Positions 29,753 to 39,816 of a stretch of DNA of 39,816 bases are shown here, one piece after another. Within the stretch, counting starts at the first letter, position 1. Every line of letters begins with the position of its first letter. The stretch comes from Pricia sp. (GTDB lineage Bacteria; Bacteroidota; Bacteroidia; Flavobacteriales; Flavobacteriaceae). Both the position numbers and the translations under genes were made by a program. A model generated the notes under the pieces. That model saw only the letters and a list, made by a program, of their open reading frames with translations, did no database searches and was not told where the DNA came from. The stretch spans positions 1-39,816 of the forward strand of contig JAGXIC010000017.1 in the NCBI GenBank assembly GCA_024635875.1, in the 5' to 3' direction.

Positions 29753-31114
29753 ATGCTGGATGCAAAAATCTTAGTGGTCGACGACAACAAAAGTGTACTT
29801 AGCGCTTTGGAGATCCTCTTGCAGTTCGAGTACAATACGGTAAAGACCATTTCAAATCCGAATCAGATATCTTCCTTTCCCGATTTGGATATGTATGATA
29901 TCGTGATGCTGGACATGAATTTTACGGCCGGGGTAAACACCGGTAACGAGGGCATCTTTTGGCTTCGGGAAATCCGTAAAAAAGCGCCCCAGATCTCGGT
30001 CATCATGATGACGGCCTACGGTGCCATAGATTTGGCCGTAAAAGCCCTAAAAGAGGGAGCAACGGATTTTGTGCTGAAACCCTGGAACAATGATAAACTG
30101 CTGGCCACTGTAAAATCGGCCTATGAACTACGGAAATCACAGAAAGAAGTTTCCCAACTTAGAGAAAAGGAGAGCAACCTTAAGCAGGTCATCAATCAGA
30201 GCAGCAACCACATCATCGGTAATTCTAAACCGCTTAACACGGTTTTGTCCCTTACCGCTAAAGTGGCCAAAACGGAAGTCAATGTTCTGGTAACGGGCGA
30301 AAACGGAACCGGAAAGGAATTGATTGCCCGAGAACTTCATAAACTATCCGGGCGTAGCAACGAGGTGTTTATTTCCGTGGATATGGGTTCCATTTCCGAA
30401 AATCTGTTCGAAAGCGAACTTTTCGGCCACACCAAAGGTTCGTTTACCGACGCCAAGGAAGACCGTGCGGGAAAATTCGAAGCGGCCAACGGCGGCACGT
30501 TGTTCTTGGATGAAATCGGGAACCTTTCCCTTCAGGCCCAGGCGAAGTTATTGTCGGCCATTCAGAATAAAACCATCGTCCGAGTCGGATCTAACAAACC
30601 GATTCCCGTAGATATCCGTTTGATATGTGCCACCAACGAAAATTTGGATAAAATGGTTAAGGACGGACTTTTCCGCGAAGACCTATTATACCGAATCAAC
30701 ACCATTCGCATCGAAGTGCCACCGCTGCGTGAAAGAGAAGGCGATATTCTGGTTTTGGCCGATTTCTATCTCAAAAAATTTGCTGTCAAATACGCCAAAC
30801 AGGGTTTACGCATCAACCAATCTGCCCAAGAAAAATTGATGGTCTATCCTTGGCCCGGAAACATCCGTGAACTTTTACATACCTTAGAACGCGCCGTAAT
30901 ACTCTCCGAAGGAAACGTGTTGAATCCTGAAGATTTTCTGTTGGAGGCAAAACCGACGACTTCCGTAACAACCGGTCCGGAAACCTTGGAAGAAATGGAA
31001 CTGCTGATGATTACCAAAGCCTTGAACCAAAACGACGGTAATTACAGCGCGGCCGCCGAGCAACTGGGGATTTCGAGGCAGACACTTTATAACAAATTGA
31101 AAAAGAAAAAGTAA
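29753..31114 (+). CDS. Sigma-54-dependent response regulator (NtrC family)
   Basis: 453 residues in three parts. The receiver domain (1-~120) has the acidic pair D10/D11 and phospho-acceptor D54 in MLDMNF. The AAA+ domain (~145-380) has Walker A GENGTGKE, a GAFTGA-loop variant GSFTDA in GHTKGSFTDAKEDRAGKF, Walker B GGTLFLDEIG, and the R-finger region FREDLLYRINTIRIEVPPLR. The C-terminal Fis-type helix-turn-helix is YSAAAEQLGISRQTLYNKLK. It activates sigma-54 RNA polymerase from upstream sites. It is divergent from the TolC-led ABC unit, whose leader holds a -24/-12 promoter and paired TGT-N11-ACA sites, and it is followed by its likely cognate kinase at 31487. The GSFTDA variant is conservative at the Phe-Thr that contacts sigma-54. 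Confidence 0.95.
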   Translation: MLDAKILVVDDNKSVLSALEILLQFEYNTVKTISNPNQISSFPDLDMYDIVMLDMNFTAGVNTGNEGIFWLREIRKKAPQISVIMMTAYGAIDLAVKALKEGATDFVLKPWNNDKLLATVKSAYELRKSQKEVSQLREKESNLKQVINQSSNHIIGNSKPLNTVLSLTAKVAKTEVNVLVTGENGTGKELIARELHKLSGRSNEVFISVDMGSISENLFESELFGHTKGSFTDAKEDRAGKFEAANGGTLFLDEIGNLSLQAQAKLLSAIQNKTIVRVGSNKPIPVDIRLICATNENLDKMVKDGLFREDLLYRINTIRIEVPPLREREGDILVLADFYLKKFAVKYAKQGLRINQSAQEKLMVYPWPGNIRELLHTLERAVILSEGNVLNPEDFLLEAKPTTSVTTGPETLEEMELLMITKALNQNDGNYSAAAEQLGISRQTLYNKLKKKK

Positions 31115-31486: not shown

Positions 31487-32854
31487 ATGGTAAGCAGACA
31501 CATATATTGGCAATTACTATTCCGGATACTCCTAATCTCCGCAGCCGCCCTTGGAACAGGCTTTTTCTTTTTTGATGGGCAATATGTGCTATCCGTATTT
31601 GTATTCGGCTTCCTCGTGCTACAGACCGTTTTTCTTATCCGCTATGTCAATCAGACCAACCGAAAAATCGCCTATTTTTTCGATGCGATAAAAAATGAGG
31701 ATTTCACCCTGCGGTTTCCCGAAAAACTGAGTGTAAAGTCCTTAGAGGAACTGAACCACAGCCTGAACATGCTGAATGCGATGATACAGGACATCCACCT
31801 AAAAAAACAGGCACAGGAGCAGTATTATCAAGAGATTCTGAAACAGGCAGATATCGGCATCCTGACCATTAATCCAAAGGGACACATTCTGTATGCCAAC
31901 CCTACCGTCGAAAAACTGTTGAATTACCGGCCGCTGAACCACATCAAACAATTGAACCAAGTCGACGAAAAACTGTACGGACTATTTGAAAATTTACAAG
32001 CTTTTGAAAGCAAGACCATTCAACTGACCAACGAACGTGAGAAGATACAGTTGGCGCTAAAATCTACGGTAATCAACCTAGAAAAACAATCGTTATTGCT
32101 GGTGGTCGTACAGGATATTCGCAGGGAACTGGATGAAAAAGAAACGGATTCCTATGTGAAACTCATCCGCGTTCTGACCCATGAGATCATGAATACGATT
32201 ACCCCGATCACTTCGATTTCGGAATCCGTTTTAAAATATTTTAAGAAGGACGGGCAGTTGTTAACCACCGACGAATTCGCGGAACACCATATGAAAAGTA
32301 CGGTCAAAGGACTGGAAATCATTAAAGAGCAAGGGAAAGACCTCATGGGATTCGTGCAGTCGTACCGTACGTTTCTCAGTGTACCCGAACCCGATAAAGC
32401 GCTCATACCGGCCCAAAATCTACTAGAAAAAATCAAACTTTTAATGGGTGGGGATAGCGGTCAGGAACACATCGATATCGAGGTCATTGTCGACCCAGAA
32501 GATTTACAGCTTTTTATCGACGAAAAGCAGATTACGCAGGTACTTTTAAACCTTGGGAAAAACGCGCAGCAGTCTTTGATAAATCAAGAAAGTATTACAC
32601 CATCGGATAAAAAGGGACAAATCAAGTTTTTAGCGGGTATCGATGATAAAAATAAAAAAATCATCAAGGTCTGGGACAACGTCCCCGGAATTCCCCAAGA
32701 ACATCTCGATGAAATTTTCGTGCCTTTCTTCACCACTAAAAATACCGGAACTGGTATCGGCCTTAGCCTATCGAAACAGATCATGCGATTGCACGGGGGC
32801 AGTATTCGGGCAGCATCGAAAGAGAATACGGTTTTTACGCTGACCTTTGATTGA
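31487..32854 (+). CDS. Sensor histidine kinase (NtrB/NtrY-like), partner of the sigma-54 activator
   Basis: 455 residues. Two adjacent membrane helices span ~8-50 with almost no periplasmic loop, suggesting sensing within the membrane or cytoplasm. A HAMP-like linker precedes a PAS domain (ILKQADIGILTINPKGHILY). The H-box is RVLTHEIMNTITPITSISES (phospho-accepting His in LTHEIMN). In the HATPase_c domain the N-box is VLLNLGKNAQQSL, the G1 box reads WDNVPGIPQEH, the F-box is PFFTTKNTGTGIGLSLSKQI, and the end is GGSIRAASKENTVFTLTFD. G1 normally reads DNGPGI; here the first Gly is Val, a possible weakness in nucleotide binding. Its gene order with the NtrC-type activator indicates a cognate pair. 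Confidence 0.92.
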   Translation: MVSRHIYWQLLFRILLISAAALGTGFFFFDGQYVLSVFVFGFLVLQTVFLIRYVNQTNRKIAYFFDAIKNEDFTLRFPEKLSVKSLEELNHSLNMLNAMIQDIHLKKQAQEQYYQEILKQADIGILTINPKGHILYANPTVEKLLNYRPLNHIKQLNQVDEKLYGLFENLQAFESKTIQLTNEREKIQLALKSTVINLEKQSLLLVVVQDIRRELDEKETDSYVKLIRVLTHEIMNTITPITSISESVLKYFKKDGQLLTTDEFAEHHMKSTVKGLEIIKEQGKDLMGFVQSYRTFLSVPEPDKALIPAQNLLEKIKLLMGGDSGQEHIDIEVIVDPEDLQLFIDEKQITQVLLNLGKNAQQSLINQESITPSDKKGQIKFLAGIDDKNKKIIKVWDNVPGIPQEHLDEIFVPFFTTKNTGTGIGLSLSKQIMRLHGGSIRAASKENTVFTLTFD

Positions 32855-34993: not shown

Positions 34994-36052
34994 CTATTGA
35001 CTCACCTTGACCTTACTCTTTTCCAACGTAAACGAAAACTCGGACCCTACCTCGATTTCACTTTCGACGTAGATTTTTTCTTCGTGGGCCTCAATGATAT
35101 GCTTTACGATGGCAAGCCCTAGACCTGATCCGCCCTCTTTACGGCTTCCGCTTTGGTCGACCCTATAAAAACGTTCGAAAAGCCGGGGTATGTGGCGTTT
35201 CGGAATGCCTTCGCCGTTATCGGTGATCCTGACAATTACCTTGTTTTTGATCAGGTTTTCTACACTGACTTCCGTCGTACCGTCCCGCCGACCATATTTC
35301 ACGGAGTTGACCAAAAGATTGGTAATGACCCGTTGTATTTTTTCCTTATCGGCATACACGTGAATCGGTTGGGAATACTCCATATCAAAAGTAAGAACGA
35401 TATTCTTTTTTTCCACCTTCATTTCCAACAGGTCGAAAACACTTTGTATCAGCTCTACAATATCGAAATCTTCCTTTTCCAGATTGAGTTCACCGACTTC
35501 AAGCTTCGTAATCAGATCGAGATCTTTAACGATGTATATGAGCCTATCGACCCCTTTACTCGCGCGCTGCAAGTATTTTTTACGGATGTTCTTATCGTTC
35601 ATGGCGCCATCCAACAAGGTTTCAATATAGCCTTGCACGGTGAATAGCGGGGTCTTAAGCTCGTGCGAAACATTTCCCAAAAAGTCTTTCCGGTATTCTT
35701 CACGTACCTTTAGGGTATCGATCTCGATTTTCTTGTCTTTGGCGAACTTTTCGATTTCGTCGGTAAGCGTGCGCATGTCGGTGGTGATCGGATCTGACGT
35801 CAATGTTGAGGATTCCAAAAGGGCAACGTCGTCATAGATCTGTTTTATCCTTTTGTAAACAAATTTTTCGATTCGGACTTGAAGGATAAGAAAGGAAGAA
35901 AGAAAAAGGAGTACGGTGGATAGCAAAACGGCCAAAAGGTCAAAAATATGGAAAAAGAAAAGTAGGATGCCCAAGACAAGGGCAAAAATTAAGGCTATCA
36001 AAAGGGATGATCGCAGGGCGAAGCGATATGATCTTTGTAGCTTGATGGCCAT
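34994..36052 (-). CDS. PhoR-like sensor histidine kinase
   Basis: 352 residues. Two closely spaced membrane helices at ~14-55 (LLIALIFALVLGILLFFFHI, LLAVLLSTVLLFLSSFLIL) leave no real periplasmic domain, as in PhoR. A coiled linker precedes the HisKA H-box FLGNVSHELKTPLFTVQGYI (His ~130) and the HATPase domain: N-box VITNLLVNSVKYGRRDG, G1 DNGEGIP, F-box LFERFYRVD and G2 GGSGLGLAIVKHI. All are canonical. The start codon overlaps the regulator stop as TAATG, indicating translational coupling. Together with the PhoB-like regulator and the direct repeats upstream, phosphate sensing is plausible, but the signal is inferred. Confidence 0.92.
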   Translation of the reverse strand: MAIKLQRSYRFALRSSLLIALIFALVLGILLFFFHIFDLLAVLLSTVLLFLSSFLILQVRIEKFVYKRIKQIYDDVALLESSTLTSDPITTDMRTLTDEIEKFAKDKKIEIDTLKVREEYRKDFLGNVSHELKTPLFTVQGYIETLLDGAMNDKNIRKKYLQRASKGVDRLIYIVKDLDLITKLEVGELNLEKEDFDIVELIQSVFDLLEMKVEKKNIVLTFDMEYSQPIHVYADKEKIQRVITNLLVNSVKYGRRDGTTEVSVENLIKNKVIVRITDNGEGIPKRHIPRLFERFYRVDQSGSRKEGGSGLGLAIVKHIIEAHEEKIYVESEIEVGSEFSFTLEKSKVKVSQ

Positions 36053-36738
36053 TACAACACGAACTTATAGCCCACCCCTTTGACCGTCTTAAAATGCTCT
36101 TCCCCGATTTTTTCGCGTAGTTTCCGAATATGAACGTCTATGGTACGGCCACCGACGACCACCTCGCTGCCCCAAACCCGATCTAGGATGGTTTCTCGCT
36201 TGAACACCTTATTGGGCTTTGAGGTCAAAAGGGCCAGCAGTTCGAATTCCTTTCTCGGTAAAATGAGTTCTTTGCCGTGGTTGACAATCTTATATTCCTC
36301 CCGATTGATGACAATTTCGCCCACCTTGGTAATATCGTCTTGGGTTCCGTCGTCTTCTTTCAACCTTCTGAGCAGTGCCTTGACTTTACTTACCAAAACT
36401 TTGGGCCGGATCGGTTTGTTGATATAATCATCGGCCCCGGCATCAAGGCCGGCCACTTGGGAATAGTCTTCGCCGCGCGCCGTCAGAAAGGTGATAATGG
36501 TATTTTCGAGTCCCTTTATCTTGCGTATTTTCTCGCAGGCCTCCATCCCGTCCATTTCCGGCATCATAACGTCGAGAATGATCAAATGCGGCTCCTTTTT
36601 TTTGGCCATGGCGACCCCCTCGATCCCATTTTTCGCAGTAAACACCTGATAGCCTTCCGAGGTAAGGTTATATCCGACGATTTCAAGAATATCGGGCTCG
36701 TCATCGACTAAAAGTATCTTGATGTCTTTCTTTTTCAT
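36052..36738 (-). CDS. PhoB/OmpR-family response regulator
   Basis: 228 residues. The receiver domain (1-~125) has acidic D12/D13, phospho-acceptor D56 in LIILDVMMPEMDG, a Thr in ITFLTARGEDY and Lys in YINKPIRPK. The C-terminal winged-helix Trans_reg_C domain (~135-228) shows VINREEYKIV, LPRKEFELLALLTSKPNKVF and the recognition region TIDVHIRKLREKIGEEHFKT, ending VKGVGYKFVL. It is the upstream partner of the PhoR-like kinase. The divergent TonB-dependent receptor gene starts 182 bp away, and the space between carries 11-bp-phased TAACGT repeats, the kind of site PhoB-type winged helices bind as tandem dimers. The PhoB identity is probable but not proven. Confidence 0.93.
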   Translation of the reverse strand: MKKKDIKILLVDDEPDILEIVGYNLTSEGYQVFTAKNGIEGVAMAKKKEPHLIILDVMMPEMDGMEACEKIRKIKGLENTIITFLTARGEDYSQVAGLDAGADDYINKPIRPKVLVSKVKALLRRLKEDDGTQDDITKVGEIVINREEYKIVNHGKELILPRKEFELLALLTSKPNKVFKRETILDRVWGSEVVVGGRTIDVHIRKLREKIGEEHFKTVKGVGYKFVL

Positions 36739-36799
36739 GGTGTTCTAAAATTTGGTTAACCCGTCAAAAGTAAAGATAATACATCTAGGGTAAAGCGGC

Positions 36800-36870
36800 T
36801 TAACGTTGATTTAATGTCATAACGTTAAGGTAACAGTATTGCAATATAGGTTTAACGTGGAGGTAACATG
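36800..36870. promoter_or_regulatory. Pho-box-like tandem direct repeats
   Basis: Repeat starts: TTAACGTT 36800, TTAATGTC 36811, ATAACGTT 36819, GTAACAGT 36830, (weak GCAATATA 36841), TTAACGTG 36852, GTAACATG 36863. All spacings are 11 bp except 8 between the second and third. The repeats lie in the 181-bp gap between the divergent PhoB-like and TonB-receptor genes. Helically phased 11-bp repeats are the hallmark of PhoB/PhoP-type operators. Confidence 0.65.
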
Positions 36871-36919
36871 ACTTTTACAGCATGTGGCGTTCTTTGCGCC
36901 AAATAATAGAATTTATTTA

Positions 36920-39816
36920 ATGAAAAATTGCTTAACGTTTCTGTTGCTTCTTTTAGGTGTCATTAATCTCACCGCTCAGCGCACAGGAAGTATCGCAGGT
37001 AAATTAACTGACAAAGAATATAATGATGAACCATTGGCCTTTGCGAATATTTTAATAAAAGGAACGACAACTGGCACGACGACCGATTTTGACGGATTGT
37101 ATGAAATCTCTGGTCTTGAGCCCGGCACTTATACGGTGGTCTACAGCTATTTGGGGTATAAAACGGTCGAGATTCCCAATGTTAATGTGGAGGCGGGCAA
37201 GGTCAGCGAGCTCAATGTGCCCATGAGCGCTTCGGAAGGGGTTTCTTTGGATGAGGTCGTTGTGACTACATCTGCGCGAAAGGATTCGGAGACCGCACTC
37301 CTTCTTGACCAAAAAAGGGCTATCGAAATTAAGGAAAGTATCGGTGCAATCGAACTTGGTAACCTTGGTATATCGGATGTAAAGTCGGCCGCAACAAAAA
37401 TTTCCGGGGTTACCGAAAGTGAAGCCTCAGGAGACGTTTTTGTAAGGGGACTTGGAGATAGGTATTTGGTAACCACGTTCAATGGTCTGCCCATCCCTTC
37501 AGATAACATTGAAAAAAAGAATATTGACTTGGGACTTTTTCCGACTAGAGTCATACAAAATGTCAGCATTAGTAAGACGTATTCCGCCTCGGTCTCTGCC
37601 GATCAGGCTTCGGGAAATATTAACATTGCCTCTAGGGAATTGAACGGTGCCGAAGAGCTTGAAGTTGGCGTTACGGGCGGTGTCAATACCAATGCCATCG
37701 GTGATGGTTCAGATGATAATTTTAAGGTTTCCGCTAACTACGATGATACAACATTAGGATTTTATGATACCGATGTAGATATATTCGATCAACTGACCAA
37801 ACAATCTTGGGATCCGAGTACGGTTGAGACTCCCATCAACCGTGGATTTAATCTAAGTGCGGGAAAATCTTTTTTTGACAACAAATTCAAGGTGTTTTTG
37901 ACCGCATCCAATAAAAAGTCTCATCAATACCTGACCCCTGGTGTTTTCAAAATATATGATCAGGTTAATGTTACCGATTCCATAAACGATTTCAGTCAAT
38001 GGGAAACCGAATACGTCAACAACGGACTGTTGGATTTGACCTATCAGAACGAAAAAAATATTGTTAAATCGGTGACTCTCTTCATCAATACGTTAAACGA
38101 TGTGGTTTCCGAAGGGGGAAGGGATGGTAACGGAGATCTTCAAGAAGAGACCATTGGTAATTTTTCCGATTTCTTGAGAGATCAAAATACAAAACAGACC
38201 AGATTATTTGTACAGCAATTCATCGGGAATCATAAAATCTCCGAGAAAAACGAATTAGACTGGGCTGTTAGCTATAATAAACTCAATGCCGATGAGCCGA
38301 ACCGGATACGAAATATCGTAAACTTTAGTTTGGATCCAACCAATGTTTTCCTTTATGAGAATAGTGGCTTTGAATCCAGAAAACTTTCTCAATTGATAGA
38401 TGATGAGGAATATAATGGTCTTATCAAGGACCAAATTAAAGTGATAGATGAGGAAAACAGAAATTTCTATATCGATTTGGGAATTAATTACAGGAGAAAA
38501 ACGAGAGATTTCGAGTCTACCTTTTACGGTGTTTCCAATGTAGGTGAAAATAGGGCCAACTCTAATTCCTTGGACGAGTTTGACCAAATTTTTACAGTGG
38601 CCAATTTTCAGAACGACCTGCTTGAGATATCTTCTTTCCAGTCTAATGCAGATGGTGAGGTTCAAGATGAATACAAAGGAGAATATGAGTCCAAAGCTGC
38701 ATTTGCACAGTTCAATGTAAGTTTCGACAAATGGAATATCAACGCTGGACTGCGCGCTCAATTAGATGACCTTGTTGTCGATTATGATGTAACCAGTGCC
38801 CCTGGTGGTGATGTAGGGACGGTCACTCGCGACTATTCCAATTTTTATCCAAGTTTAAACCTTAAATATTCCATAACAGATGAACATGCGGTTAGATTTG
38901 CTGCCAGTCGCAGCATAACACTACCCGAGTTTAAAGAAATCGCTCCCTTTCGATACATATCTCCCACTGGCCAACAGGTTTTTGGAACGGTTGGCGAAAA
39001 TGCCTTGGAGGCGTCCTTTTCAAACAACTTCGATTTAAAATGGGAATTCTTTCCAAGTAGGGGCGAATTGATTTCCGGATCATTGTTTTATAAATCAATC
39101 GAAGACCCCATTAATAAAGTGCGTGCCAGGGGAGCTGATGGGGCTTTGTTTACTTTTCGAAATTCGGGAGACGAAGCCACTGTTTATGGTATTGAAATCG
39201 AATCCAAAATCGATTTGGTTAAACCCGAAACTGATGACGAAGGAAGTCCAGTCGGACCAGAACTAAACCTAGTCTTCAATGCCAGTAGAATGTGGCACAA
39301 ACAGGACTTACGCGAGGTACGTGCCGAGAATAATCCCGACCTTATTGCAGAGACTTTCAGATATGGTACTAATACGGAGTCCGGTCTTCAAGGTGCCTCC
39401 GATTGGGTCGCCAACTCAAGCCTGAACCTAAAAACCTCTGGTGACAATCCATGGACGGCGAACCTTTCGGCGAGTTATGCTTCTGACAAAATATTCGCTC
39501 TCGGTTTCGCACGTAGCCAACAAGATTGGGACGTTCGTTACAACGATGCGATTATTGAGAAAGGCTTTGTGGTTCTGAATAGCCGGGTAAGTAAAGAATT
39601 TGGCGAGCATTTGGAAGTTTCACTGTCAGGTCAAAACCTCTTAAATCCCTTTATTAGTCAGACTATCGATGTGTTGACCTCAGAAAGTAGGGCTGAGCTC
39701 GAAGCCTTTTCCGACGAAAGGGACGAACGCTTAGGCCCTAACGCCCCGGAGAGGGACGTGTTTACCGATGTAGTAAGATCGTACAAAATAGGCCGTACGT
39801 TTAAATTGGGCCTTAC
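36920..39816 (+). CDS. TonB-dependent outer membrane receptor, 3'-truncated
   Basis: The frame opens at ATG 36920 and stays open to the window end (about 965 residues seen). The signal peptide is MKNCLTFLLLLLGVINLTAQ. A carboxypeptidase-regulatory-like domain follows at ~22-110 (GSIAGKLTDKEY, ANILIKGTTTGTTTDFDGLY, YTVVYSYLGYKTVE). The next region is a plug-like domain (LDEVVVTTSARK, SGDVFVRGLGDRYLVTTFNG, ASGNINIASREL) and then many long beta-strands of the barrel. Such receptors import large nutrients or chelates across the outer membrane using TonB energy. The divergent PhoB/PhoR-like pair and phased repeats upstream suggest control by phosphate starvation, so a phosphorus-containing ligand is possible. 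The C-terminal strand lies outside the window. No SusD partner can be seen within it. Confidence 0.93.
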   Translation, partial: MKNCLTFLLLLLGVINLTAQRTGSIAGKLTDKEYNDEPLAFANILIKGTTTGTTTDFDGLYEISGLEPGTYTVVYSYLGYKTVEIPNVNVEAGKVSELNVPMSASEGVSLDEVVVTTSARKDSETALLLDQKRAIEIKESIGAIELGNLGISDVKSAATKISGVTESEASGDVFVRGLGDRYLVTTFNGLPIPSDNIEKKNIDLGLFPTRVIQNVSISKTYSASVSADQASGNINIASRELNGAEELEVGVTGGVNTNAIGDGSDDNFKVSANYDDTTLGFYDTDVDIFDQLTKQSWDPSTVETPINRGFNLSAGKSFFDNKFKVFLTASNKKSHQYLTPGVFKIYDQVNVTDSINDFSQWETEYVNNGLLDLTYQNEKNIVKSVTLFINTLNDVVSEGGRDGNGDLQEETIGNFSDFLRDQNTKQTRLFVQQFIGNHKISEKNELDWAVSYNKLNADEPNRIRNIVNFSLDPTNVFLYENSGFESRKLSQLIDDEEYNGLIKDQIKVIDEENRNFYIDLGINYRRKTRDFESTFYGVSNVGENRANSNSLDEFDQIFTVANFQNDLLEISSFQSNADGEVQDEYKGEYESKAAFAQFNVSFDKWNINAGLRAQLDDLVVDYDVTSAPGGDVGTVTRDYSNFYPSLNLKYSITDEHAVRFAASRSITLPEFKEIAPFRYISPTGQQVFGTVGENALEASFSNNFDLKWEFFPSRGELISGSLFYKSIEDPINKVRARGADGALFTFRNSGDEATVYGIEIESKIDLVKPETDDEGSPVGPELNLVFNASRMWHKQDLREVRAENNPDLIAETFRYGTNTESGLQGASDWVANSSLNLKTSGDNPWTANLSASYASDKIFALGFARSQQDWDVRYNDAIIEKGFVVLNSRVSKEFGEHLEVSLSGQNLLNPFISQTIDVLTSESRAELEAFSDERDERLGPNAPERDVFTDVVRSYKIGRTFKLGL

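Follow-up and report, generated by a model that had tools for sequence, protein, structure and literature searches.

A conserved 11-bp repeat array between a phoB-like gene and a TonB-dependent receptor gene of Pricia is very probably the Pho box of Flavobacteriaceae

Pho boxes are 11-nt direct repeats to which the regulator binds head-to-tail (review PMC4415409). The promoter elements of Bacteroidetes are a -7 element (TAnnTTTG) and a -33 element (TTTG) (PMC2483708). In Flavobacterium johnsoniae, Pi depletion raises PhoB (log2 +3.06), the adjacent TonB-dependent receptor Fjoh_0545 (log2 +8.02) and the lipoprotein behind it (log2 +9.91) (PMC8115612). For this phoB-linked receptor the increase is about 2^8-fold (RNA-seq/proteomics), and, according to the authors, receptors of this type are induced by Pi depletion alone, Fe and N limitation having served as controls; the term 'pho box' is absent from the main text of that paper. 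The PhoB protein of Bacteroides fragilis binds the pstC promoter, with no motif given in the accessible part of the source (PMC3547664). For PhoP of Riemerella anatipestifer, the accessible part of PMC9603813 reports TTTAACA as the most conserved nucleotides (DAP-seq) and binding to its own promoter and to a TonB receptor promoter (EMSA), and in that part no 11-bp array or -7 spacing was found. The Riemerella motif has been likened to that of ArcA and the regulon is broad (PMC9603813, accessible part, and PMC5399024), while pstS is raised in the mutant, opposite to the classic Pho system (PMC5399024). A Pho-box consensus for Bacteroidetes was not found in the literature searched.

The window (the whole stretch of DNA analyzed, 39,816 bases) is the entire contig, and the reading frame of the TonB-dependent receptor, which starts with the ATG at 36920 (+ strand) and is divergent from the phoB-like gene (- strand), is open at the contig end (Table 1). 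The 36052-36738 product has the architecture of a PhoB-like OmpR-family regulator, with both PF00072 and Trans_reg_C (PF00486) above the cut-off, and is the top PhoB-type match in the genome (203 bits vs 167 and 162 for the next ones; the genome is 79.6% complete). Two more PhoB-type regulators are encoded in this Pricia genome. The product scores below the curated NCBIfam PhoB equivalog cut-offs (209 vs 296.2 bits for TIGR02154 and 203 vs 270 bits for NF053854), and is for this reason named PhoB-like here. The 34994-36052 kinase is likewise below the curated PhoR equivalog cut-offs (236.7 vs 334.2 bits for TIGR02966, 160.5 vs 500 bits for NF053855), and its PnpS score is also under the NCBIfam equivalog cut-off. 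Near phoBR, a response regulator of the sigma-54 activator type (29753-31114, + strand) is followed by a histidine kinase (31487-32854), a neighborhood which is kept in some relatives (e.g., L045 and L063). Lipoprotein-like genes come after the receptor in the relatives L045, L069 and L115; in the window that place is beyond the contig end. Very small proteins (about 100 aa), mostly with a Por_Secre_tail type IX sorting domain (L045:2235-2543, L115:3311-3652 and others), are encoded behind the receptor and the lipoprotein or, in loci lacking the receptor, immediately opposite phoB.

Table 1. Coordinates of the genes, half-sites and promoter elements around the intergenic region.
Feature	Position	Strand	Remarks
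PhoR/PnpS-like sensor histidine kinase	34994..36052	-	NCBIfam PnpS 247 bits, PhoR 237 bits
PhoB-like response regulator	36052..36738	-	receiver PF00072 and OmpR-type winged helix PF00486 (Pfam)
-7-like element of the phoB promoter, TATCTTTAC	36770..36778	-	GTAAAKATA upstream of phoB
Half-site pair TTAACG-N5-TTAATG (36800, 36811)	36800..36816	+	upstream (-33) side of the phoB promoter
Core pair of the probable Pho box, ATAACG (36819) and GTAACA (36830)	36819..36835	+	most widely conserved part, near-constant distance to phoB
Degenerate half-site GCAATA, third position of the register	36841..36846	+	weak conservation as nAAATA
Receptor-proximal half-sites TTAACG (36852) and GTAACA (36863)	36852..36868	+	TAA 1.64 bits per column, 43 loci
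Sixth half-site TTTACA, occupying the -33 position of the receptor promoter	36874..36879	+	exactly +11 from 36863; 19 bp before TTTG
-7 element of the receptor promoter, GTTCTTTGC (Bacteroidetes TAnnTTTG type)	36889..36897	+	TTTGC near-invariant
TonB-dependent receptor with carboxypeptidase-like N-terminal domain	36920..39814	+	PF13715, PF07715, PF00593 (Pfam)

The array consists of six half-sites in exact 11-bp register (36819, 36830, 36841, which is degenerate, 36852, 36863 and 36874), with the consensus NTAACR. The first five had been listed in the initial annotation and are correct in letters, places and spacing; the list was short by one, as TTTACA at 36874 extends the register. A further pair (36800/36811), which had also been described as 11 bp apart, was verified as TTAACG and TTAATG. 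It ends 2 bp ahead of the main array and is off its register. The pair is kept as TTAACrTTsATTTAAT in most loci, several of them with a divergent neighbor other than the receptor, and probably serves phoB and not the receptor. The isolated TTAACCCG noted at 36756 is present in its letters (TTAACC). It was left out of the array because it is not conserved (just 18/80 loci have TTAA[CT][CG] in the 50 bp next to the phoB start) and, in the window, is flanked by the -7-like element and the ATG of phoB.

A regulator-based scan of species genomes gave 80 loci (75-89% identity, best segment), and about 40 of these have a divergently oriented, homologous TonB receptor, mostly 165-230 bp away. Dozens of Flavobacteriaceae having the phoB-like gene and the divergent receptor share the array as a strong phylogenetic footprint. 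It is present in the Flavobacterium loci covered, which have a matching phoBR/receptor gene order and come from members other than F. johnsoniae. In an ungapped alignment of 43 loci, the TAAC cores at 36820, 36831, 36853 and 36864 are near-invariant and the spacers vary; TTTAC (36874-36878) and TTTGC (36893-36897) are near-invariant as well. Since the 36819/36830 pair served as the anchor of this set, and the presence of TTTACA (or a near match to it) as the selection criterion, these elements are conserved partly by construction. The conservation of 36852, 36863 and TTTGC is independent of it, as the two half-sites played no part in the anchoring or the selection. Loci with other neighbor genes usually retain at least the core pair beside phoB (e.g., L049, L060, L095 and L109), at a near-constant distance even when the divergent neighbor changes. 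The core pair points away from phoB and yet travels with it, across quite different divergent genes; for autoactivation such an orientation is odd. In loci with no receptor (L101 and L106; also L095, L097, L104, L105, L107 and L109), a sigma-54-like element is found downstream of the Pho box, in the divergent promoter (TTTTGGCAC-TAATT-TTGCA in L101).

In the receptor promoter, the TTTG of the -7 element is preceded by half-sites at distances of 19, 30 and 41 bp. On the other side, GTAAAKATA (+ strand) is found upstream of phoB in 69/80 loci, mostly 20-36 bp from the ATG, and in the loci carrying it the distance to the core pair is most often 46-50 bp. The same spacing is observed away from phoB. 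Of the 20 PiT promoters in which a box-like match is seen, 15 have TTTG exactly 41 bp after the first half-site, a distance equal to that from 36852 to 36893 in the window. Several porin promoters show an offset of 30 bp, and overall the TTTGC offsets are in the 11-bp register (30 or 41) in 20 of 25 cases.

The PiT promoters were identified with a sequence-only profile (R1), trained on phoB promoters alone, with which the core pair scores 18.6 bits (its sequence is included in the training). The best non-self match in the genome (G000:C277:5749, 17.2 bits, E 0.029) lies directly before the gene of a PHO4-family PiT permease, with a Porin_O_P gene on its other side. For this genome and its relatives, matches of at least 13 bits are found in the forward orientation upstream of 17/30 PiT genes, mostly 140-147 bp before the domain start, and in the reverse orientation in 1/30. 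As the PiT promoters are homologous to one another, these are not 17 independent events. The controls gave 0.2% for shuffled sequences and 0/30 upstream of ribosomal L16. Just 5/30 Porin_O_P genes have the box upstream (R1, at least 13 bits), and PhoX was rejected as a target, with the box in 0/15 upstream regions. The search before phosphate genes, which the initial annotation had suggested, was thus positive for PiT (that of the own genome included) and for several porin/pst promoters, and negative for PhoX. The own-genome R1 matches below 15 bits (L128-L132) have no clear link to phosphate. A short 17-base pattern was rejected as a search tool, since its 14 matches in the genome, mostly coding or unrelated, compare with 15 for the reversed control, and alone it lacks specificity.

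PstS passes the cut-off in just 6 of 37 genomes, and among these genomes no pst gene was found at that cut-off in the genus Pricia. G010 has pstS, and there a box is found before the porin gene that immediately precedes it. In 12/19 genomes, receptor homologues and PiT or pst are at most 9 kb apart (about 0.15 expected). The PiT permeases (L126 and other PiT loci) are long, with open frames of about 750-820 aa, and the PF01384 match is in two pieces. A Pho-box-like pair (TTAACATTTTGATAACG; ATAACATTAAGATAACA) is also seen before a SusC-type receptor gene in L127 of this genome (G000:C188, about 2442) and, in another genus, in L135 (G004:C16). The receptor is adjoined by an HTH regulator and a TIGR03351 phosphonatase-like hydrolase, and is a possible second phosphate (phosphonate) target.

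That the array is a product of chance, or an AT-rich low-complexity repetition with no function, can hardly be maintained. The TAAC core is short and AT-rich, and four phased units alone are unremarkable window-wide (5/100 shuffled windows), but the best whole-window match to five units (18/20, at 36820) was reached in 0/100 windows and 0/5000 intergenic regions, with shuffles attaining at most 16, and the six units (21/24) were equaled in 0/100 and 0/5000, the null model being first-order Markov resampling and not an exact dinucleotide shuffle. Period 11 gave the top score among periods 6-20, and the footprint conserved across the family rules chance out. It is also very unlikely that the array is the target of a different OmpR-family regulator encoded in the genome, with the PhoB-like gene adjacent only incidentally. 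Recognition of tandem direct repeats is common to the family, and the two further PhoB-type regulators would be candidates; the array, however, stays with the phoB-like gene, at a near-constant distance, when the divergent neighbor differs.

The points which count against the Pho reading are the regulator and kinase scores under the NCBIfam cut-offs, the results for PhoX (0/15) and Porin_O_P (5/30), the homology of the PiT promoters to one another, the orientation of the core pair away from phoB, and the raised pstS in Riemerella. The regulator scores, the PhoX genes with no box and the Riemerella system, with its ArcA-like motif, broad regulon and raised pstS (PMC9603813, accessible part, and PMC5399024), would also fit a regulator which binds the array but senses a non-phosphate signal (e.g., redox or envelope stress), with the receptor in that regulon. 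This we consider unlikely in view of the box of fixed geometry before PiT in many genera, the location of the receptor near PiT or pst, and the F. johnsoniae receptor reported as induced by Pi depletion only (PMC8115612). A divergent Pho promoter, at which the PhoB-like regulator switches on the receptor and phoBR, and also PiT elsewhere in the genome, under phosphate starvation, is on the whole highly probable.

On each feature that can be tested in the sequence, the array acts as a Pho box: tandem direct repeats with an 11-bp period, half-sites on the -35/-33 side at a fixed spacing to the -10/-7 element, and occurrence before phosphate acquisition genes (PiT in 17/30, some porin/pst promoters). 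Because it is conserved family-wide and recurs before a phosphate transporter gene, it very probably acts as a DNA switch for phosphate starvation, in the role of the Pho box of Flavobacteriaceae. The proposal that the repeats define such a box is in this way supported by the 11-bp footprint, the PiT boxes and the spacing to the -7 element. The accompanying one, that the receptor belongs to the phosphate-starvation regulon, is supported by the PiT/pst synteny and by the F. johnsoniae RNA-seq/proteomics (PMC8115612), and would hold for the present organism by analogy.

From the sequence, its conservation, its geometry and its association with phosphate transporter genes, we infer regulator binding, activation and a phosphate signal in this organism. 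The intergenic region would act as a divergent Pho promoter: when phosphate is scarce, the regulator would be phosphorylated by its kinase and would bind the half-sites (NTAACR-N5) head-to-tail, each half-site taking one subunit. The subunits on the receptor side would be placed on 36852, 36863 and 36874 (41, 30 and 19 bp upstream of TTTG), the last half-site replacing the -33 element, so that RNA polymerase would be recruited by the regulator as it is at pho promoters of E. coli, and the receptor would be turned on together with the lipoprotein genes expected downstream of it. The proximal half-sites would confer autoregulation of phoBR, and the same box with the same geometry would drive the PiT permease. 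We give an even chance to the wider reading, in which this geometry (19/30/41 bp to TTTG, last half-site replacing -33) is specific for Bacteroidota and the six-unit array is one bidirectional switch for phoBR and a TonB receptor in phosphorus uptake, in a lineage with no Pst that relies on PiT.

Pho boxes are already known as a kind, and the family-wide definition and the promoter geometry appear to be new as far as the literature was searched. With a box of fixed promoter spacing, the phosphate regulon may be traced in the genome of any flavobacterium, cultured or not, and the defined box gives single-base predictions testable with reporters. In Bacteroidota, large outer-membrane systems are induced by phosphate starvation.

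The PhoP box of Bacillus subtilis has a TTAACA-like core. It consists of direct repeats with similar features (PMC4415409), but the regulator and the sigma factor are Gram-positive ones. The E. coli pho box shares with the array the 11-nt direct repeats with a conserved core and a less conserved spacer, next to the promoter, and the tandem head-to-tail binding of PhoB (PMC4415409) is predicted for the array as well. The core, however, is CTGTCAT in E. coli and NTAACR here, up to six units are in register here, and the sigma-70 -10 element is replaced by the spacing to a TAnnTTTG-type -7 element. Riemerella anatipestifer belongs to the same class, Flavobacteriia, and its PhoP, with the TTTAACA motif and both its own and a TonB receptor promoter bound, has a proposed role in virulence/redox and not in phosphate (PMC9603813, accessible part). 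In the F. johnsoniae phoBR locus (PUSIV, Fjoh_0541-0549), phoR-phoB are found beside a TonB receptor and a lipoprotein and Pi depletion results in strong induction (PMC8115612), whereas the receptor in the window is a divergent homologue.
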